This document shows positions 7,347 through 17,388 of a stretch of DNA of 64,000 bases, in pieces. The translations under genes and the position numbers were made by a program. Position 1 is the first letter of the stretch. Every line of letters begins with the position of its first letter. This stretch comes from Streptomyces flavofungini (GTDB taxonomy: Bacteria > Actinomycetota > Actinomycetes > Streptomycetales > Streptomycetaceae): the NCBI RefSeq assembly GCF_030388665.1, contig NZ_CP128846.1, positions 8,280,001-8,344,000 of the forward strand. The letters run 5' to 3'. A model generated the notes under the pieces. The model had not been told where the DNA came from. It did no database searches and saw nothing but the letters and a program-made list of their open reading frames with translations.

Positions 7347-8153
7347 GTGCGAGACGAACTCCTCACCATCGGGCGCTTCGCCCGCCTGTGCCGCCTCAGC
7401 GTCAAGCAGCTGCGGCACTACGACGAGACGGGCCTCCTGACCCCGGTCCGCGTGGACGTCGGCTCCGGATACCGCTACTACGCACCTGAACAGGCGCGCG
7501 CGGCCCTGACCATCGCGCTCCTGCGCGACATGGACGTGCCGCTCGCCGTGATCGCCGAGGCGCTGGCCGCCGGGCCCGAGTCCCGGGCCCGGATCCTGCA
7601 CGCCGAACGGGCCCGGCTCGCCGAGCGGATCAGCAGGGACCAGGCACGCCTGAAGGTGCTCGAACGCCTCGCGGAGGGCGGGCCGCCCGGCCAGGACGTG
7701 ACGACGGGCCGCGAGCCGGAGCGCGTCCTCGCCGTGGTGCGAGCGCACTGCGCCCCCGCGGAGATCGGGGCGAAGGTCGAGGAGTGCGTGGGCCGACTGC
7801 TGCCCGCGCTCGGCGGAGCGGGGATCGCCTGGAAGCCGCCGCTGTGGGGCCTGTACCCGCTGGACCTGGAGGCACGGATGGAGATCGCCGTCGGCGTCCC
7901 GGTCGGGCGGGGCGCGGCGACACCGGGCCTGGAGGTCGAGGTGCTGCCCGGCGGGCCCGTCGTCGAGACCGTGCACATCGGGCCCTACGTCCAGTTGCCG
8001 CTGGCCTACAACGCCCTCTTCGCGGCCGTCCACGAGCGCGGCCTTCGCCCGCGGGCGCCCGCGCGCGAGGTGTACCTGGCCGGTCCGGCCGACGTTCCCC
8101 AGGACGAGCTGAGAACCAGGCTGATCATCGAGGTCGAGGAGACCACGGCATGA
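7347..8153 (+). CDS. MerR family regulator with GyrI-like effector domain
   Basis: 268 residues. Residues 1-70 are a MerR winged helix ('LLTIGRFARLCRLSVKQLRH', 'YDETGLLTPVRVD', 'YRYYAPEQ'), followed by a dimerising coiled coil (about 75-110) and a GyrI-like small-molecule-binding domain (about 120-268), as in BmrR/BltR-type multidrug sensors. GTG 7347 is the start that fits the domain; an ATG at 7339 is out of frame. The stop overlaps the next start (ATGA), so it is translationally coupled to the BtrH-like gene, its likely functional partner. Confidence 0.88.
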   Translation: MRDELLTIGRFARLCRLSVKQLRHYDETGLLTPVRVDVGSGYRYYAPEQARAALTIALLRDMDVPLAVIAEALAAGPESRARILHAERARLAERISRDQARLKVLERLAEGGPPGQDVTTGREPERVLAVVRAHCAPAEIGAKVEECVGRLLPALGGAGIAWKPPLWGLYPLDLEARMEIAVGVPVGRGAATPGLEVEVLPGGPVVETVHIGPYVQLPLAYNALFAAVHERGLRPRAPAREVYLAGPADVPQDELRTRLIIEVEETTA

Positions 8154-9139
8154 CCACAGTGACAGGCATCGACGCCCGCGGCATGCGGCACTGCGAGACG
8201 ACGGCCCTCGGGGTGCTGCTGCGGCACCAGGGGCTCGACCTGTCCGAGCCCATGCTCTTCGGCCTCGGCTCCGGTCTGTCCTTCGTCTACTGGGACAGCA
8301 AGAACCTGGGGTTCCCCTTCCTCGGGGGCCGGGTCAAACCCTTCGAGCTCACGAGGAACCTGGCCGCCGGACTCGGCCTGGAGCTGGTGGTCCAGGAGAC
8401 CACCTCGCCCCGCAAGGCCTGGGAGAACGTGACGGCCCCCCTCCGGGCGGGCCGGCCCGTGGGACTGCAGCTCGACAGCTACCACTTGGAGTACTTCGGC
8501 GCGAGGGTGCACTTCGGCGGTCATGTCGTCGCCCTGTACGGCCACGACGACCGCGTCGCGTACCTGGTGGACACCGACCAGCAGGGCGGCGCGGTGACCA
8601 CGAGCCTGACCAGCCTCGCCGAGGCCAGGGCCGCGCGCGGCCCGATGACCGCCAGACACCGCTCCTTCACCCTCACCGTCCCGGCGAACCCGCCCGCCCC
8701 GCGGGACCGGATCATCCCGGCGATCACCGCCTGCGCGGCCGCCTTCCTCGACCCGCCCATCGCCAACCTCGGCCACCGCGGCATCGAGAAGGCGAGCAAG
8801 CTGGTCCGCACCTGGCTGGAGCGCTCCGACGCACCGGAGCGCGACCTGCCGCAGGCCGCCCGCCTAATGGAGCGGGCCGGAACCGGCGGCGCCCTGTTCC
8901 GCAACCTCTACCGCGACTTCCTGGCGGAATGCGCCCAACTGCTCGACAGCGGCCATCTGCGCACCGGCCTCGGCCTGTACGCGGAGGCAGCCGACCAGTG
9001 GACCGAGGTCGCGGAACTCATCAAGAAGGCCGGTGAGTCGGGCGCCGCGGAGCACCTCGCCCAGGCGGGCGACCTCCTGCGCGACCTCTCGCGAACCGAG
9101 CGCGAGGCCATGCGGGCGCTGAGCCGCCTGGGGGAGTGA
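8150..9139 (+). CDS. BtrH N-terminal domain protein (BtrH_N/DUF4872 type)
   Basis: 329 residues. The N-terminal half has the BtrH-like cysteine-peptidase fold layout: 'MRHCETTALGVLL' with Cys15 as candidate nucleophile, and 'GGHVVALYGHDD' with a candidate catalytic His; the second half is an all-helical DUF4872-like domain. BtrH is an acyl transferase that moves a side chain from a carrier protein to an aminoglycoside in butirosin synthesis, but stand-alone actinobacterial members have no known role and no carrier protein or aminoglycoside genes are nearby. It is coupled by a 4-base overlap to a multidrug-sensor-type MerR gene and followed by a strong terminator. Confidence 0.75.
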   Translation: MTTVTGIDARGMRHCETTALGVLLRHQGLDLSEPMLFGLGSGLSFVYWDSKNLGFPFLGGRVKPFELTRNLAAGLGLELVVQETTSPRKAWENVTAPLRAGRPVGLQLDSYHLEYFGARVHFGGHVVALYGHDDRVAYLVDTDQQGGAVTTSLTSLAEARAARGPMTARHRSFTLTVPANPPAPRDRIIPAITACAAAFLDPPIANLGHRGIEKASKLVRTWLERSDAPERDLPQAARLMERAGTGGALFRNLYRDFLAECAQLLDSGHLRTGLGLYAEAADQWTEVAELIKKAGESGAAEHLAQAGDLLRDLSRTEREAMRALSRLGE

Positions 9140-9231: not shown

Positions 9232-9590
9232 CCGCGGTACCGGGCGGCGACCGAGGAGACGCAGGCCATCCCGACGCCGACGATCCGCACCAGGCGCGGC
9301 ACCCAGGTGCCGTCGGCCGAGCCGTGCAGGGCGCGCCGCAGGCCCGGCCGCGGCGGCGACGAACAGGGCTCCGACGACAAGGAAGTTGGTGATCTGGATC
9401 CAGCCGACCGAGCCGTTGGCCAGCATGCTGATGGGGTGCCGGGTCAGGTCGAAGGCGTCCCGGGTGAGGGCCTGGGCCGCCGCGACCACGGTCCACAGCG
9501 GGGTGGCGACGGCGCCTGCGGTGAGCAGCGCGCGGGCGGGGCCCGAGGCGCGGGCGACGGTGCTCGTGGCGGTGTCGCGGGCGGTGAGCG
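9232..9590 (-). pseudogene. DUF998 membrane protein relic
   Basis: On the minus strand the frame 'LTRDAFDLTRHPISMLANGS' followed by 'VGWIQITNFLVVGALFVAAA' is a clear DUF998 N-terminus. Near 9341-9347 the frame must shift by one base to continue as 'LRRALHGSADGTWVPRLVR' and 'IVGVGMACVSS', and it then ends at TGA 9232-9234. The family normally has about 200 residues and six helices, so more than half is missing. Both a frameshift and a truncation are visible. Confidence 0.7.
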
Positions 9591-9592
9591 GG

Positions 9593-10192
9593 GTGGCCAA
9601 GGACGCGCTGGTCGCCGCGCTCGAACAGTGGCCCACCGCGGGGGTCCCCGACAACCCCGGTGCCTGGCTCCTCGCCATCGCCAAGCGCCGGGCCGTCGAC
9701 CACGTCCGGCGCTCCCAGCGGCAGGAGCGCAAACAGGAGCAGCTCGCCCACCCCATCGACCGGCGGCCCGGAGCCGACGGCGAACCCGAGCAGGACGACG
9801 TCCTGTTCTGCCGCACCGAACTGCCCCTGCGCGAGCGGACCTTGTGGTGGCTCCTGCACGAGTCGGGAGCCGGGGCGACGGCCGTCCTGTCCCTCGACGT
9901 CGAACACCTCGACGTGGACGACCGCCGCGCCCGTACGGGACGCACCTGGGTGTCCTGGCGCTCCGGCACCGCACGTCTGCTCCTCACTCTGCTGTCCGGC
10001 CGCACCCGCGGCCCCCTCTTCCTCTCCGACCGCCGCCCCGCCCCCGCCCGGATGCCTGCGGCGGCCGACCTGCGCCTGGAAACCGGCCGCCGCGGGCTCT
10101 CCTACGAACGGGCGGAGCACCTCTTCAAACAGGCCACCAAGTCCCTGGACCCGTCCGCCGACGGCTGCACGCTCAGTCAGCTCAAGCCCTAG
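9593..10192 (+). pseudogene. Chimeric relic: ECF sigma fragment joined to tyrosine recombinase fragment
   Basis: One open frame contains two unrelated pieces. 9593-9805 encodes part of the region 2 of an ECF sigma factor: 'EQWPTAGVPDNPGAWLLAIA' then 'KRRAVDHVRRSQRQERKQEQ'. From about 9806 it changes without a stop into a tyrosine recombinase catalytic domain: 'LPLRERTLWWLLHESG', 'VLSLDVEHLDVDDRRAR', 'GTARLLLTLLSGRTRGPLFL', ending 'GCTLSQLKP'. The catalytic Arg of box I is missing (AGATAV where AARAxEV is usual) and the frame ends just where the HxLRH box should come. Neither half can be active. The ATG at 9386 gives a longer frame, but its first part is antisense to the DUF998 relic. Confidence 0.7.
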
Positions 10193-10229: not shown

Positions 10230-11732
10230 CTACGCGGGCCGGGCGACCAGCCGGTAGCCGACGCCGCGTACGAGCTCGATCAGGCGGGGGTCGGGCAACT
10301 TGCTGCGCAGGGAAGCGACGTGCACCTCCAGGGTGCGTGCGGTCGCCTGCCGGTTGTCGGGCCAGAGTTGGCCGACGATCAGCTCACGGCGGACGACCAC
10401 GCCGGGGCGCCGGGCGAGCAGGGCGAGCAGGTCGAACTCCTTGCGGGTCAGGTGGACGGCCGAACCGTCCACGCTCATCTGCCGGTCGGCCAGATCGATG
10501 TGCAGGGGGCCGAGGCGCAGGACCGTCTCGGCGGCGGAGCGGTTGCCGTCGGGGCCCTGCGCCCGCAGGATGCCGAGCACCTTGCCCGCGTGCCCGTATC
10601 CCGAGGGGGGCGGGGGAGTGTCGGGCACCGGGGGGCTGTTCGGTGTTGTCGGGCCCGGGGCCTGGTAGAAGTAGCCGACGCCTCGGGCCGACACGATCGA
10701 CGCGCTGCCGACGGCGGTCGTGTCGAGTTTTCCGCGCAGACGGGAGATGGCGAACTTGACCTTCTCGGTGTCCCGCCCGGTGGGGTCGTCCCACGCCCTC
10801 GCGAGCAGTTTGCGGAAGGGCTGGACGACTCCCGCGTTGCGCACCAGGAGGTCGAGTACGCGGAACTCCGTGCGCGTCAGCCGCAGCGGCGCGTCGGCCA
10901 CGGCGGCCTCGAAGGCCTGGGAGTCGAGCCGCAGCAGGCCGTCGTCGTAGACGTCCTGGGGCCGCTGCTCCCGTGACGTGCGGTGCAGCACGCGCTCCAT
11001 GCGGGCGAGGAGTTCCGCGGAGGCGTACGGCTTCACGACGTAGTCGTCCGCGCCCAGGTTGAGTCCGTGCAGCCGGGACCGGTCGTCGCCGCGCGCCGTG
11101 ACGACGATGACGGGTACGTCGCTGACGGTCCGCAGCTTGGCCAGGGCCTCGTAGCCGTCGATGTCGGGGAGCCCGAGGTCCAGGAGCACCAGGTCGGGCC
11201 GTCCGGCGTACGCCGCGCGGAGGCCCCCGGATCCGGACAGCTCGTGGACGACCGAGTAGCGGTGCTGGGCCAGCATCGCGGACAGCGCCGCGGCGACGTG
11301 CGGATCGTCCTCGATGAGGAGCACGCGTGCCCGGCGGGCAGGGGTGGGCGGTGGCGGAGGGGGCGTCGGTGCCCGCTCGTCCCGGCCCTGTTTCTCCGCC
11401 TCTCTTGGGAGCAGGCGTGACTCGACCTCGGACTGGGGCACGCCGTTCTTGATGAGGAACGACAGTGCCATGTCGTAGCAGTCGGCGCAGACCTGGCTCT
11501 CGGCGCCCTTCACGATCAAGGTGTGCCGTGCGTCCCGGTCGCAGCGGCGGCCGGCGATGTCCGTCGAGCACTGGCGGAAAGCGGTGGAGTCCTCGTGCTT
11601 CCGTCGTCGGTCACGGGACCGCCGGGCCGCCGATCGGCAGGCGTCCGAGCAGTAGCGGCGCGGCCGGCCCGTGCCGGAGGCGGGTGGCAACGACCCACCG
11701 CACTCCTGGCACTCGCCGTCTGCCGTCCCCAT
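10230..11732 (-). CDS. Response regulator with Cys-rich N-terminus and two winged-helix domains
   Basis: 500 residues from ATG 11732, which has GGAGAAAGG upstream. Residues 8-32 hold CQEC...YCSDAC and 55-85 hold a second set (Cys55, Cys64, Cys82, Cys85), both plausible zinc sites. A Pro-rich linker (122-131) leads to a receiver domain (about 135-250) with acidic pocket Glu141/Asp142/Asp143, phospho-acceptor Asp185 (LLDLGLPD), Thr212 and Lys234. Two OmpR/PhoB-type winged helices follow: about 262-365 ('LRLTRTEFRVLDLLVRNAG' to 'ARGVGYFY') and about 405-500 ('VHLTRKEFDLLALLARRPG' to 'VRGVGYRLV'). Normal OmpR regulators are about 230 residues with one such domain. No histidine kinase gene is adjacent, so the input is unknown. 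Confidence 0.85.
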   Translation of the reverse strand: MGTADGECQECGGSLPPASGTGRPRRYCSDACRSAARRSRDRRRKHEDSTAFRQCSTDIAGRRCDRDARHTLIVKGAESQVCADCYDMALSFLIKNGVPQSEVESRLLPREAEKQGRDERAPTPPPPPPTPARRARVLLIEDDPHVAAALSAMLAQHRYSVVHELSGSGGLRAAYAGRPDLVLLDLGLPDIDGYEALAKLRTVSDVPVIVVTARGDDRSRLHGLNLGADDYVVKPYASAELLARMERVLHRTSREQRPQDVYDDGLLRLDSQAFEAAVADAPLRLTRTEFRVLDLLVRNAGVVQPFRKLLARAWDDPTGRDTEKVKFAISRLRGKLDTTAVGSASIVSARGVGYFYQAPGPTTPNSPPVPDTPPPPSGYGHAGKVLGILRAQGPDGNRSAAETVLRLGPLHIDLADRQMSVDGSAVHLTRKEFDLLALLARRPGVVVRRELIVGQLWPDNRQATARTLEVHVASLRSKLPDPRLIELVRGVGYRLVARPA

Positions 11733-11858
11733 GTCGCGGCCCTTTCTCCCCACGGATCGCGAGCATGACACGAAACCCGTTTTTGTGACGGGCCATCGGG
11801 TGCAAGAGGGAGAGCGCCCTTGGCCGGGACCGACGGTCCATGTTCTCCTGGATGCAGA

Positions 11859-11888
11859 GGGCCTGACCGCCTCTCGACGATCAGGCCC
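11859..11888 (-). terminator. Hairpin after small minus-strand reading frame
   Basis: An 8-bp stem (11859-11866 with 11881-11888, GGGCCTGA) with a 14-base loop lies six bases beyond the stop codon of the small frame ending at 11895. Its place supports transcription on the minus strand through that frame. Confidence 0.5.
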
Positions 11889-11894
11889 CCGGTT

Positions 11895-12153
11895 TCATGA
11901 CCGCTCGTGCTTGCCGGCGTCGACGATCATGTCACCGACCGCGATGAGGACCCTTGCCCCTTGGGCAAGGGCCTCGTGCTGTTTCAGGGCCGCCACCGTG
12001 TCCACGACGAGCAGCACGGCCCGCAGCCCCGTCCAGCACGAGTTCACTCGCTGCGGCTGCCACCTCCTGGGCGTTCCGGGGCCCGTCGCGAGGGGCTCGT
12101 CGCCCTCCGTCTGCGGACCCGGTTCGTCCGGTGTCGAGGTTCGGCACATCCGT
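11895..12153 (-). pseudogene. Small gene of unknown function, probably frameshifted
   Basis: A ribosome site (GAGAGGAAGG) precedes GTG 12153, which starts 'MTDVPNLDTG'. Codon bias then favours a second frame ('PGPQTEGDEPLATGPG'), returns to the first ('NAQEVAAAASELVLDG'), and finally needs the second again for 'LLVVDTVAALKQHEALAQGA' and 'RVLIAVGDMIVDAGKHERS', stop at 11895. Joined, these would give one protein of about 85 residues, so I suspect compensating small indels. The family is not recognised. A longer alternative start in the last frame (12149) gives an 84-residue protein and may be the annotated version. Confidence 0.4.
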
Positions 12154-12168
12154 CACCTTCCTCTCGAC

Positions 12169-12528
12169 AGCGACCGCGGCCATCGCGGGCTGTCGCGACA
12201 CGCACGCGGTGGATCCACGAGTCGCCGGTGCGTCGTGCGAGAGGGAGTGGAGAGATGCCTGAGTCCCCGTCACCTGAAGTGGTCGGCCCACCGTCCCCCG
12301 GAACGCGCCCACCCGGCAAGCAAGCGCAATCAACGTAGCGCCGCGGCCAGTTGGTGAAGGACTGCCCCGCGTCCGTGGGCTCGCGGCCGAGAGTGCCGGT
12401 GGGCGGGGAGTGCCGCGCGTGATAGAAAGTGGAACGATAGTCCCGGAAGTTGCCCGAGCGGGCACGCGCACCGGTCGACCGCGCGTGCCCGCACGGGCCG
12501 AGGGCCGATTCCACCGACAGGACACCCG
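12169..12528. other. Intergenic region with 11-bp inverted repeat
   Basis: No convincing gene was found in these 360 bases. At 12459-12469 and 12481-12491 an exact 11-bp inverted repeat (CGGGCACGCGC and its complement) with an 11-base centre ACCGGTCGACC ends 37 bases before the MFS gene. It could be an operator or a leader hairpin for that gene. Confidence 0.45.
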
Positions 12529-13864: not shown

Positions 13865-14536
13865 CTACTGCGGCTTGTGCGGCGTGGCCTCGCTCGGCCG
13901 TACGACGACCATGCCCTCGCCCTCCAGCTTCAGCTGCACCGCCTCACCGGAGCCGCCGCGGATCATCGAGCCGATCGACTGCGAGCGGTGCAGCGACGTG
14001 TGCAGGCTCGTGGTCCAGCCCACGACGGCGTCGGTGTCCACGAACACCGGCGCCTGCGGCGACACGGGAATCACCAGCGGCTCGCCCTCGCACATCAGGC
14101 CCAGCTGCCCGTGCCCCGTGAACACGCTGTTGAAGAGCCCGCCGCCGGAGATCCCCGAGCCCTTCACGGTCTTGATCTCGTACGAGAGGGACGCGTCGAA
14201 GCAGAGGATGTTGCGGCCGTTGACGGTGAGCGAGTCGCCCTGCTCGATGTCGACGACGAAGCAGCTCTGCGCCTCGTGCGCGAACCACGCCTCGCCCTGG
14301 CCCTTCACGGCCATGAGCGGCAGTCCCTCGCCGGTGACCGCGCGCTTCAGCATGCCGCCGACGCCCTGGCCCTTCCGCTCGAACTGCAGGTTGCCGCGGT
14401 AGGCGACCATCGCGCCCTGGCGCGCCATCATCTCGCCGTTCACGGCGTACCGGATGGACTTCGAGTTGTGCAGGCTCATGCCGGGTGCCGTCGCGGGCTG
14501 CGCCACGTGGTCCTTGGAGAAAAGGTCGCTCTTCAT
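13865..14536 (-). CDS. AIM24 family protein
   Basis: 223 residues from ATG 14536. The protein is mostly beta strands with the AIM24 signature features: 'YAVNGEMMARQGAMVAYRG', 'RAVTGEGLPLMAVKGQGEAW', 'DIEQGDSLTVNGRNILCFD', and a Gly-rich 'GSGISGGGLFNSVFTGHG'. Bacterial AIM24 proteins have a TRAP-like double-jelly-roll fold related to a yeast mitochondrial inner-membrane assembly factor; the bacterial role is not settled. Streptomyces often carry several copies in tandem, but only one is seen here. Confidence 0.88.
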   Translation of the reverse strand: MKSDLFSKDHVAQPATAPGMSLHNSKSIRYAVNGEMMARQGAMVAYRGNLQFERKGQGVGGMLKRAVTGEGLPLMAVKGQGEAWFAHEAQSCFVVDIEQGDSLTVNGRNILCFDASLSYEIKTVKGSGISGGGLFNSVFTGHGQLGLMCEGEPLVIPVSPQAPVFVDTDAVVGWTTSLHTSLHRSQSIGSMIRGGSGEAVQLKLEGEGMVVVRPSEATPHKPQ

Positions 14537-14725
14537 GCGGGCATCGTGCCCCGCTCGGGGGCGCCGCGCCAAGCCTCCGGGGGCGCATGTCCAGCAGACC
14601 GTGGGCGCGCTCGCGCGCCCCCGGCCGCGACTTTCGGCCAGGGGCGCTTCGACTTGGGGCGATGCCCCGCCGCCGGGCCGGGGCGGGGCGCTCGTCGCGG
14701 GTCGGCCGGTCGGCCGGTCTGTCGG

Positions 14726-15580
14726 TCAGCCGGTCGTGACGCGGACGTAGTCGACGGTCAGCGTCTGCGGGAAGGTCGTGCTGCCGTCCGGGTCGCCGGG
14801 CCAGTAGCCGCCGACGGCCAGGTTGAGGATGAGGAAGAAGGGCTTGTTGAACACCCACTGCTTGCCGCCGAGATCGGCCGGGGTGCGGGTCTGGTAGACG
14901 TGACCGTCGACCGACCAGGTCACCTTGTTCGGGGACCAGTCCACGGCGAAGGTGTGGAACTTGTCCGCGAAGGCCTCGCCGTTCGGCAGGGAGTACGCGG
15001 CGCCGATGCCGCCCGAACCGGAGTAGCCGGGGCCGTGCAGCGTGCCGTGGACGGTGTTCGGCTCCTTGCCGATGTTCTCCATCACGTCGATCTCGCCGCA
15101 GTTCGGCCAGCCCACGCTGCCGATGTCGGCGCCGAGCATCCAGAACGCGGGCCACATGCCCTGGCCGCGCGGCACCTTCAGGCGCGACTCGACCCGGCCG
15201 TACGTCGAGGTGAACTTGCCCGCGGTGTTGAGCCGGGACGAGGTGTACTCACAACGGCCGTACCAGCACTGGTAGTTCTCGGGGTTCTCCTTGCGGGCCG
15301 TGATGACCAGGTTGCCCTGGCCGTCGAGCTTCGCGTTCTTGTTGCCCGACGTGTAGTACTGGCGCTCGTGGTTGTTGACGTTGTCGCCGGTCTCGACCTG
15401 CCACTTGGCGCCGTCCACGGCGGATCCGGCGGGGCCGTTGAAGTCGTCGGAGAAGGCGAGGGCCTTCTCGCGCTCGGGCGCGGCGGCGGCGCTGGGAGCG
15501 GCGGTCGCGGCGGTGGCGCAGCAGACCAGGGAGAGTGCGCAGAGCGCCGCGCGGCGGCGCCAGGAGAGGGACACAGTCAT
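14726..15580 (-). CDS. Secreted glycoside hydrolase family 16 beta-glucanase
   Basis: 284 residues from ATG 15580. A Sec signal peptide ('MTVSLSWRRRAALCALSLVC', then 'ATAAPSAAAAPE') precedes a single GH16 domain. The catalytic ExDxxE motif is in GEIDVMENIG; 'WPAFWMLG' and 'FHTFAVDW' are also typical. The arrangement fits an endo-1,3-beta-glucanase (laminarinase-like) acting outside the cell on fungal or plant glucans. No carbohydrate-binding module is attached. The start was chosen over one at 15655 because it opens the signal peptide. Confidence 0.92.
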   Translation of the reverse strand: MTVSLSWRRRAALCALSLVCCATAATAAPSAAAAPEREKALAFSDDFNGPAGSAVDGAKWQVETGDNVNNHERQYYTSGNKNAKLDGQGNLVITARKENPENYQCWYGRCEYTSSRLNTAGKFTSTYGRVESRLKVPRGQGMWPAFWMLGADIGSVGWPNCGEIDVMENIGKEPNTVHGTLHGPGYSGSGGIGAAYSLPNGEAFADKFHTFAVDWSPNKVTWSVDGHVYQTRTPADLGGKQWVFNKPFFLILNLAVGGYWPGDPDGSTTFPQTLTVDYVRVTTG

Positions 15581-15891
15581 CACATCGCTTCGAGTGGGGG
15601 GCGGGCACGCATGCCGTGGGGGCATGAAGGTGGTGCGCAATTCAGTCGCGTGCATGACAAGGTCACGTCGAGAGTTGAACGCGGTACGCGATCCTCCGCG
15701 ACGGTTTCTTCACTGCTTGATTTAAGGCAGGTGCGCAGGGGGCGTCAAGGCATGGGTGCGGACCAACTGCGAAGGGGCCGACGGCACTCGATGCCGCCGA
15801 CCCCTTCGCCGCGTCCGGCACGACCGCTGCCCCGGCCGTGCCGCCCGCGCTCCGCGCGCACCCCCGCTCTCCCCGCGAGGGCGCGCGGTCG

Positions 15892-17388
15892 TCACTCGTC
15901 GACGGCCGCCCCGAACGCCGCGTCCCGCGCGGGCGCGCCGAGCGATCCGGCGCCGTACGTCCACGAACCGGCGGCCGTGACCCCGCCCGCGCCCGCCGAA
16001 AGGACCCACACCACGCCGTCGCCGGTGTTCTCGCCCGGCGCCGACGCGAGCAGCCCGAAGCGGCCGTCGCGGTTGGGGTCGGTCAGGCGCACCTGGGCGC
16101 CCCACTTGTCGCCCTTCTCGGCGGTGCCCGGGATGTCGTCCGAGTTCTGGTCCCACGACTTGGCGCCGGTCCCGGTGAGCCCGGCGGCCGTGCCGCGGAG
16201 CACCCACACGGCGCCCGCGTCCGCGACCGTGCCGATGTCCTCGCCGGGCGCGCCGATCGCCACGTCCGCGTAGCCGTCCTTGTCCGTGTCGGCGACGGAC
16301 AGGTCGGCGCCCCAGCCGTCCCCGCGCTCGGCGGTGCCGGGCACGCCCGCGGTGTCCTGGGTCCACCACTTCACGTCGTCGGAGATCCCCTCGGCGGAGC
16401 CGTAGCGCACGCCGACCAGGCCGCCGGTCGTCGTCTCGCCGCCGTCGTCGGGGGAGTGGGGCTCGCCCGTGACCAGGTCGTCGTAGCCGTCGCCGTCGAT
16501 GTCGCCGGACGCGGCGGCCGGGCCCCCGCGCAGGTCGCCCTGGTGGGTGAGGGCGTCGGCGCCGCCCTTGAAGTAGGCGGACCAGCCGTGTCCCGGCTCC
16601 TCGTCGCCGACGGTCACGCCGGACACCACGAGGTCGGCGTAGCCGTCGTCGTCGTAGTCGCCGGTGGTCAGGGACTTGGGCAGGATGTGGCGCTCCTCGG
16701 CGCGCGCCGACGCGCGTCCCGAAGCCAGGTGCTCGGTCGCGAGGCGCTTCAGGGGCGCCGCGGCGCGGGCCTGCGGCACGGCGTCGTACACGAAGAGTTC
16801 GAGGTCGTCGCGGTCGAGCACGGCGAGGACGTCGCCGGGGGTGTCGCCGGTGAGCCGCGCGGCGGTCACCGCGGACCCGAACTTCTCGCCCTTGGTGGGC
16901 TCCTGGGTCTGCAGCCAGTCGCTCGCCGCCCCCTTCAGGCCCTCCTTGGAGCCCCAGAGGATCGCGACACCACCGGCGTCGGCGACCGTGCCGATGTCCT
17001 CGCCGGGGATGCCGATGACCGCGTCGTCGTAGCCGTCGGCGTCGAGGTCTCCGGTGGCGACGGCCGAGCCGAAGCCGTCGGCGGCCTCGGCAGCACCCGC
17101 GACACCGGCCGTGGACTGGCTGAACCGCGCCACGTCGCTGGTGCCGATGCCTCTGGACGAGCCGTACTGCACGGTGACGAGGCCGGCGCCCTTCTTGCCG
17201 CTGACCGTCGCTCCGGGCGCGCCGACCAGGACGTCCTCGTATCCGTCGCCGTCGAAGTCGCTGTTGCGGTCGTTCGCGTGCGTCCCTCCGGGGGTGCCCG
17301 CCACGGCGGCGGGGGCGGCGGCGACGGCCGCGCCCGACAGGAGAAGGAATGAGGCCGCGGCGACGGCGGCCGAACGGTTCTTGCGCAT
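15892..17388 (-). CDS. Secreted FG-GAP/VCBS repeat protein
   Basis: 498 residues. The signal peptide is 'MRKNRSAAVAAASFLLLSG' followed by 'AAPAAVAG'. At least six repeats of the integrin-alpha type follow, each with a calcium loop DxDxDGYxD (for example 'DFDGDGYEDVLVGAPG', 'DLDADGYDDAVIGIPGED', 'DTDKDGYADVAIGAPGED'), expected to form a seven-bladed propeller. The fourth blade is degenerate ('RLTGDTPGDVLAVLDRDD'). Proteins of this type are abundant in Streptomyces and mostly uncharacterised; adhesion or ligand binding at the cell surface is plausible. No catalytic domain or cell-wall anchor is seen. Confidence 0.88.
   Translation of the reverse strand: MRKNRSAAVAAASFLLLSGAAVAAAPAAVAGTPGGTHANDRNSDFDGDGYEDVLVGAPGATVSGKKGAGLVTVQYGSSRGIGTSDVARFSQSTAGVAGAAEAADGFGSAVATGDLDADGYDDAVIGIPGEDIGTVADAGGVAILWGSKEGLKGAASDWLQTQEPTKGEKFGSAVTAARLTGDTPGDVLAVLDRDDLELFVYDAVPQARAAAPLKRLATEHLASGRASARAEERHILPKSLTTGDYDDDGYADLVVSGVTVGDEEPGHGWSAYFKGGADALTHQGDLRGGPAAASGDIDGDGYDDLVTGEPHSPDDGGETTTGGLVGVRYGSAEGISDDVKWWTQDTAGVPGTAERGDGWGADLSVADTDKDGYADVAIGAPGEDIGTVADAGAVWVLRGTAAGLTGTGAKSWDQNSDDIPGTAEKGDKWGAQVRLTDPNRDGRFGLLASAPGENTGDGVVWVLSAGAGGVTAAGSWTYGAGSLGAPARDAAFGAAVDE

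Follow-up and report, generated by a model that had tools for sequence, protein, structure and literature searches.

The window analysed here, a stretch of 64,000 nucleotides from Streptomyces flavofungini, carries on its minus strand a regulator gene that is preceded by a long predicted leader containing a conserved small ORF. The features discussed below are, in window coordinates:

10230..11732, minus strand: regulator gene of 500 amino acids, composed of Cys8 domain, receiver, winged helix 1, GYGHA segment and winged helix 2
10248..10463, minus strand: winged helix 2, nearest to ordinary response regulators (PF00486, 83.3 bits; tree)
10557..10601, minus strand: GYGHA..L.IL segment, a linker here and the C-terminal tail in relatives with a single winged helix (alignment)
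10668..10889, minus strand: winged helix 1, common to the single-winged-helix relatives (PF00486, 58.3 bits; tree)
10998..11324, minus strand: receiver domain, residues 137-245 (Pfam)
11478..11711, minus strand: Cys8 N-terminal domain, residues 8-85, its cysteines near-invariant in aligned relatives
11769..11787, minus strand: inverted repeat H_E, CACGAAA/TTTCGTG in most aligned relatives, just 5' of the ribosome-binding site of the regulator
11841..11975, minus strand: predicted structured RNA core (model R1, 131.7 bits)
11860..11887, minus strand: stem H_D, a strong G+C hairpin directly past the stop of the small ORF, without a T run
11891..11936, minus strand: stem H_C, whose 3' arm holds the stop codon of the small ORF (covariation; stop position)
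11949..11973, minus strand: stem H_B, within the small ORF (covariation)
11895..12149, minus strand: conserved small ORF of 84 amino acids plus stop, its 3' part within the RNA fold
12150..12210, minus strand: Element A, GTCGCGACAG..CGCGA..CGCGGTCGCTGTCG, together with the ribosome-binding site of the small ORF (highly conserved)
12326..12338, minus strand: box P, CTACGTTGATTGC, promoter-like or operator-like (conservation)

The regulator ORF starts with ATG. Pfam assigns residues 137-245 to Response_reg (86.5 bits) and finds Trans_reg_C in two stretches, both above the cut-off and summing to 133.7 bits, and each winged helix closes with RGVGY. Among the PDB chains nearest to the protein are PrrA, RegX3, PhoP and KdpE, and by its sequence the regulator clearly belongs to the OmpR family. 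The receiver residues D185, T212 and K234 are present. In an alignment of 68 sequences (the query, its 66 best phmmer matches and P0092, many rows being cut at the N-terminus) D142, D185 and K234 are kept in all 68, and the T212 position is Thr in 60 and Ser in 8. The original prediction, which had described a complete receiver with Asp185, Thr212 and Lys234 and two OmpR-type winged helices each ending in RGVGY, is borne out residue by residue, with Pfam returning Response_reg once and Trans_reg_C twice. Its placement of two cysteine clusters (residues 8, 11, 28 and 32, and 55, 64, 82 and 85) is likewise exact, no other cysteine occurring in the protein, and the absence of an adjacent kinase gene holds for all eight neighbouring genes scanned.

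Several observations concern the surroundings. The gene adjoining the regulator (9389-10192, plus strand) appears to be broken; it has a weak match to Sigma70_r2 (E 4e-5, below the cut-off), and by eye its remainder looks like the final part of a tyrosine integrase (the integrase, SPFH and TetR-like labels were all assigned in this way). A 663-aa ORF of S. alboflavus (L015) matches it at 83%. In addition, 7347-9139 (plus strand) encodes a MerR-GyrI-like regulator followed by a BtrH_N/DUF4872 protein, and 13868-17388 (minus strand) contains consecutive AIM24, GH16 glucanase-like and FG-GAP repeat genes with 96-97% identity in S. alboflavus. In Actinocrispum wychmicini, a Group II intron match lies directly downstream of the regulator (L016:11515-11605, minus strand). 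A search for plasmid copies gave no match.

The phmmer search, in which 8000 candidates were scored, returned 1285 matches at E 0.001 or better, and the best 120 were examined. Many of the nearest relatives (from Streptomyces, Amycolatopsis, Actinosynnema, Crossiella and others) are proteins of 350-400 amino acids composed of Cys8, receiver, one winged helix and the GYGHA tail. Counting the query and the best 120 of the 1285 matches, 13 of 121 proteins contain a pair of winged helices and the other 108 a single one; twelve of the 13 have the same arrangement as the query, and P0064 begins at the receiver. Moreover, the regulator is the only ORF with two PF00486 matches in its own genome, where 49 such matches were counted. 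The double winged helix is thus as unusual as originally proposed; it is real, but a variant inside a small family.

In a winged-helix tree (a single FastTree run with long branches), winged helix 1 clusters with the Cys8 family and winged helix 2 falls among ordinary response regulators, nearest to the own-genome paralogue G000:C1:2464275-2464958, while P0009 and P0012/P0034 have their second helices placed elsewhere. This one tree indicates that winged helix 2 is a C-terminal add-on gained by fusion, and suggests that a second winged helix was gained more than once. Three relatives (P0023, P0054 and P0092) possess HisKA_3 and HATPase_c where winged helix 2 sits in the query, and no other Pfam sensor domain was found in these kinase-fused proteins at E 0.001. 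Because second helices and kinase modules both occur at the same place, the C-terminus of the regulator looks like a site of repeated fusion. The outputs behind Cys8 vary more widely still among relatives, from response regulator to sigma-factor-like, SARP-NB-ARC and GerE-NB-ARC-TPR.

The Cys8 domain has the spacing Cx2C-x16-Cx3C, then C-x8-C-x17-Cx2C. Its cysteines are conserved, in order, in 45/45, 45/45, 46/47, 47/48, 52/53, 53/53, 60/62 and 61/62 of the relatives aligned (P0064, in the same 68-sequence alignment, has no Cys domain), and since all eight are nearly invariant the pattern is not due to chance. No Pfam family exceeds the cut-off over the domain and no PDB chain is better than E 0.5; a DUF2116 treble clef match was found in one relative, below the cut-off. 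The two conserved Cys4 sets have zinc-type spacing, a metal-type pattern in agreement with the metal sensing considered in the original prediction, and Cys8 is probably a two-zinc domain. Within the genus such an N-terminus is rare, being found in 6 of 295 genomes at E 1e-8, the match in one of these six (G246) being confined to the first cluster.

GRPRRYCSxxCR, the first of the two clusters, is very basic, with a median net charge of +6 (range 2 to 11, n = 44), and its motif is also found in proteins that resemble TetR-type and other regulators by eye. Because of this charge and recurrence, nucleic-acid binding by the first cluster appears as likely as sensing. The zinc-type motif was observed, again by eye, at the head of TetR-like and other proteins in several Actinomycetes (L061, L063, L064, L066 and L067).

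The small ORF and RNA leader were absent from the original prediction and are the larger finding of this analysis. The small ORF stops 162 nt before the regulator start, and its final 26 codons and stop are built into a three-stem RNA. Among the matches listed, it is the only compared gene of the window that recurs beside the regulator beyond S. alboflavus, and it does so in the same direction. It was detected upstream by tblastn in L010-L013 and L015-L024 (L010 and L018 being one locus); L034 gave a weak match and L025 a fragment. An SD-like sequence precedes the small-ORF starts, and the encoded peptide has the core W..GLR.VL...A.L...EALA..ARALI.VGD.IVDAG.H.RS; the 52 database proteins that match it are hypothetical or uncharacterized wherever named. 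The reading frame is open as far as the stop in H_C in 14 of the first 15 loci, L023 stopping at codon 6. In all 16 new loci it is open into the RNA core, within which it ends; the stop falls at RNA position 79 for 13 loci and at 70 for three (a script placed the starts far upstream for L113 and L119). The stop also lies in the 3' arm of H_C in all six divergent or new loci that were folded (L034, L109 and L121-L124). At L034:2563-2799 the peptide core is recognisable though the regulator is otherwise unrelated, and the stop is again within H_C.

Counted as sums over sequence pairs, in which events are not independent and which carry no significance value, synonymous single-base changes in the 22 codons 5' of the stems number 354 against 228 expected in the first set; before the stems in 13 independent loci they number 331 against 223 in the right frame, the other two frames falling below expectation. 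Counted in the same way, changes inside the stems give 198 against 108 and 214 against 130 in the first set, 249 against 203 in the second (other frames 233/226 and 241/213), and the variable N-terminal part of the ORF has no coding signal (137 against 154). Between the window and L015, differences in the small ORF are distributed over codon positions as 9/8/9. From the open frames and these counts we conclude that the small ORF is probably translated and that the RNA constrains its 3' end. A chance ORF is disfavoured because the signal before the stems recurs in independent loci and in the right frame only, and a role as protein alone is weakened by the compensatory changes in the stems.

These stems were first proposed by RNAalifold from 13 loci. 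Over 15 loci, 94.6% of cells are paired and two-sided changes occur in 13 of 37 pairs (31 cells), compared with 2-5 pairs and 3-7 cells in slid controls. For four of the five measures of this structure, none of 500 shuffles is as high; pair types are the exception, their number being reached by 126 and 154 of 500 shuffles in two alignments. In a de novo alignment of 13 other loci and the window (A11, unfitted, as opposed to A10, which was fitted to the model and has one antisense row from L121), 96.5% of cells are paired and two-sided changes occur in 10 pairs and 19 cells (slid controls: 0-2 pairs, 0-4 cells). Folding z-scores range from -2.7 to -7.2 in the eight loci tried. The best match at the leader in Rfam release 15 is asX1 (24.6 bits against a gathering score of 70, E 0.3), and the leaders of six related loci gave nothing in Rfam. 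Neither a T run nor a terminator pattern was found at H_D; terminators of Streptomyces may lack a T run. A conserved rival antiterminator pairing was not seen by eye. The predicted anatomy of the leader, a small ORF merging into an RNA fold, is well supported by these comparisons.

The DNA around the small ORF is also strongly conserved, in box P, Element A and H_E. Box P is present at two or fewer mismatches in 14 of 15 loci (missing in L020) and in 4 of 17 later loci, where Element A is found in 11 (at four or fewer mismatches). The 13 bases of box P have a single site in the whole genome at one or fewer mismatches, which disfavours a general promoter. Its CGTTGA presumably resembles the -10 of sigma-BldN, and no -35 matching such a -10 was seen by eye. 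For the 20-base pattern of Element A there is no second genome site with 0-1 mismatch, and a regulon operator was rejected on this basis; a loose Element A regulon may nevertheless exist, because 20 genome sites are found at two mismatches versus 6 for the reversed control pattern. The pattern occurs in 7 of 392 genomes of the genus, among which the match in G344 was taken as chance after inspection of L043. A hairpin in Element A shows hardly any covariation (one pair, below the shuffle mean).

A covariance model of the leader (R1), searched alone, scores 131.7 bits at the locus and 22 bits at the next-best site of the same genome, and gives one match in each of five genomes of known loci. 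It also found a leader outside its training set, that of L034 in Actinokineospora terrae (38.7 bits; the sole match in that genome at E 0.01), before a gene that encodes the same Cys8 domain with a different output, GerE, NB-ARC and TPR. Scanning 390 genomes of the family of A. terrae with R1 only (E 1e-4) yielded 22 matches in 21 genomes, 17 of them at newly fetched loci and five already known. A Cys8 gene follows 21 of the 22 (20 complete; in L117 the frame breaks past the first cluster) and, outside the training set, 17 of 18. In the 13 strong new matches (103-127 bits) the Cys8 frame begins about 210-265 nt past the RNA start, with Thr in place of an aromatic residue in L120 and L121; the Pfam scan among these loci covered L112, L120 and L121. 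Weaker matches precede Cys8 proteins of other kinds, with GerE and sigma-70 region 4 in L122 (55.5 bits), with GerE, sigma-70 region 4 and, below the cut-off, region 2 in L124 (45.6 bits), and as a SARP with BTAD, NB-ARC and TPR in L123 (46.9 bits). No Cys8 frame lies behind the match at L125 (40.1 bits), which was taken as chance.

One genome of the scan, G1047, has two leader RNAs: L110 (127.4 bits) precedes a response regulator and L123 (46.9 bits) a SARP-NB-ARC protein. Across 296 genomes sampled from the class, no match but that of the window itself is strong; the remaining, unrelated ones score 34 bits or less, close to the 38.7 bits of L034. At ten loci from a class-wide profile search (L061-L070), mostly with the first Cys cluster only, no RNA exceeds 17 bits within flanks of about 1.5 kb. 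The relatives show leader and Cys8 domain as the conserved and seemingly portable part, behind which the output is exchangeable.

Our preferred explanation, held with a probability of about one half, is a self-contained regulatory unit: translating the small ORF would, by way of the RNA stems, set the level of a phosphorylatable OmpR-type factor. One long transcript would carry small ORF, stems and regulator, and ribosomes on the small ORF would open or block H_B, H_C and H_D as in uORF attenuators, since an SD-led ORF with its stop in a stem, followed by a strong hairpin and then the regulator, resembles that kind of control. The receiver residues are intact, and the regulator would act on phosphorylation by a kinase presumably encoded elsewhere, with winged helix 1 and the fused winged helix 2 possibly binding DNA jointly.

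Alternatively, the product of the small ORF might be a functional small protein that assists or antagonises the Cys8 regulator, with the stems serving mRNA stability or spacing only. Conservation of the peptide core outside the stems too, codon-level selection there and the 52 matching database proteins would suit this rather unlikely explanation. However, in the second set the stems leave third codon positions no freer, and it is there that the compensatory changes occur; moreover, the stop stays within H_C even in distant relatives, a constraint unnecessary for a plain cistron.

It is also conceivable, if doubtful, that autoregulation arises from binding of the Cys8 domain to its leader (as RNA) or to Element A (as DNA), which would explain why leader and domain are retained together while the output changes. 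Consistent with such binding, Cys8 and the RNA precede at least four kinds of output, the RNA is absent (17 bits or less) at the ten loci mostly with the first cluster only, that cluster is strongly basic, and box P and Element A each lack a second genome site at 0-1 mismatch. Nevertheless, co-occurrence does not prove contact, and the flanks of the ten RNA-less loci are short.

The original prediction proposed that the Cys clusters may sense metal or redox state in place of a kinase, and that the paired winged helices could allow a repeat to be bound by a single chain or sites to be bridged. Eight near-invariant cysteines of zinc-type spacing, and kinase-fused relatives in which Pfam finds no additional sensor domain, fit such a sensor. 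The replacement of a kinase is unsupported, however: the phosphorylation residues of the receiver are conserved, three relatives have a HisKA_3 kinase in the same chain, and the very basic first cluster recurs in TetR-type-looking regulators. One winged helix is found in most of the best 120 of 1285 relatives, and this explanation as a whole seems improbable.

Conserved C-terminal sequence behind a variable N-terminus, as in the small-ORF peptide, recalls arrest peptides. A more speculative proposal, to which we attach a low probability, is that of a new actinobacterial module in which a dual-coded leader, a ribosome-arrest peptide and a Cys8 zinc domain recognising its own leader were moved as a cassette onto unrelated outputs, namely response regulators (whether they have a single winged helix, a pair, or a fused kinase), proteins of sigma-factor-like type, SARPs and GerE-type STAND regulators. 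Structured leaders are usually tied to gene function or to a ligand, rather than to an N-terminal domain with changing outputs. Should the two parts form one input cassette, they would clearly exemplify the joint inheritance of RNA and protein as a swappable sensor, and the leader would represent a new RNA family without a match in Rfam release 15. The outputs also form a natural series for output gain by a regulator, running from a single winged helix through the double form and the fused kinase to sigma-like, SARP and STAND.

An ordinary orphan response regulator with an added domain, its upstream conservation reflecting shared ancestry, accords with the clear OmpR membership and the many Streptomyces regulators (49 PF00486 matches here), but is very improbable in view of the compensatory changes and of an RNA-only search that recovers Cys8 genes even before unrelated outputs.

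Returning to the self-contained unit that we favour, no title or abstract among the open-access papers that the searches brought up describes this Cys8 family or its leader; the new part, as judged from comparative sequence data, is the leader RNA with its small ORF, tied to Cys8 across different outputs. BldM and WhiI differ in output type from the regulator described here. They are likewise orphan and atypical regulators of Streptomyces (PMC4125116), and a Cys domain or RNA leader is not named for them in the portion of that source consulted. RitR-type redox-sensing regulators are likewise of response-regulator descent and sense through cysteine, as the Cys8 regulator may do; RitR uses one linker cysteine (PMC5965902), compared with eight N-terminal ones in two metal-type clusters in our case. 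Actinobacterial proteins with the motif CxxC..GRPRRYCSxxCR, TetR-like and others by eye, have the first Cys4 cluster and the Arg-rich run in common with Cys8; unlike Cys8 loci, the ten such loci examined showed neither the second Cys4 cluster nor the RNA leader.

OmpR/PhoB-type response regulators have the same receiver with conserved Asp, Thr and Lys and a PF00486 winged helix. The regulator described here differs from them by the Cys8 domain in front, by a second winged helix behind in place of a single DNA-binding domain, by its long leader with a small ORF, and by the lack of a kinase among the eight neighbours scanned. The uORF attenuators of actinomycetes, lmrC and whiB7, have, as here, a long leader in which a strong hairpin is overlapped by an upstream ORF. 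In lmrC of S. lincolnensis, uORF2 partly overlaps the terminator and matters for control, as does its start codon (PMC8546547). At our locus an SD-led upstream ORF likewise overlaps a hairpin, with the stop codon in H_C. In contrast to attenuators of this type, no T-run terminator was seen (H_D has none), the upstream ORF is long (about 65-95 amino acids) with a conserved core, and what the leader accompanies is a protein domain instead of a resistance gene.
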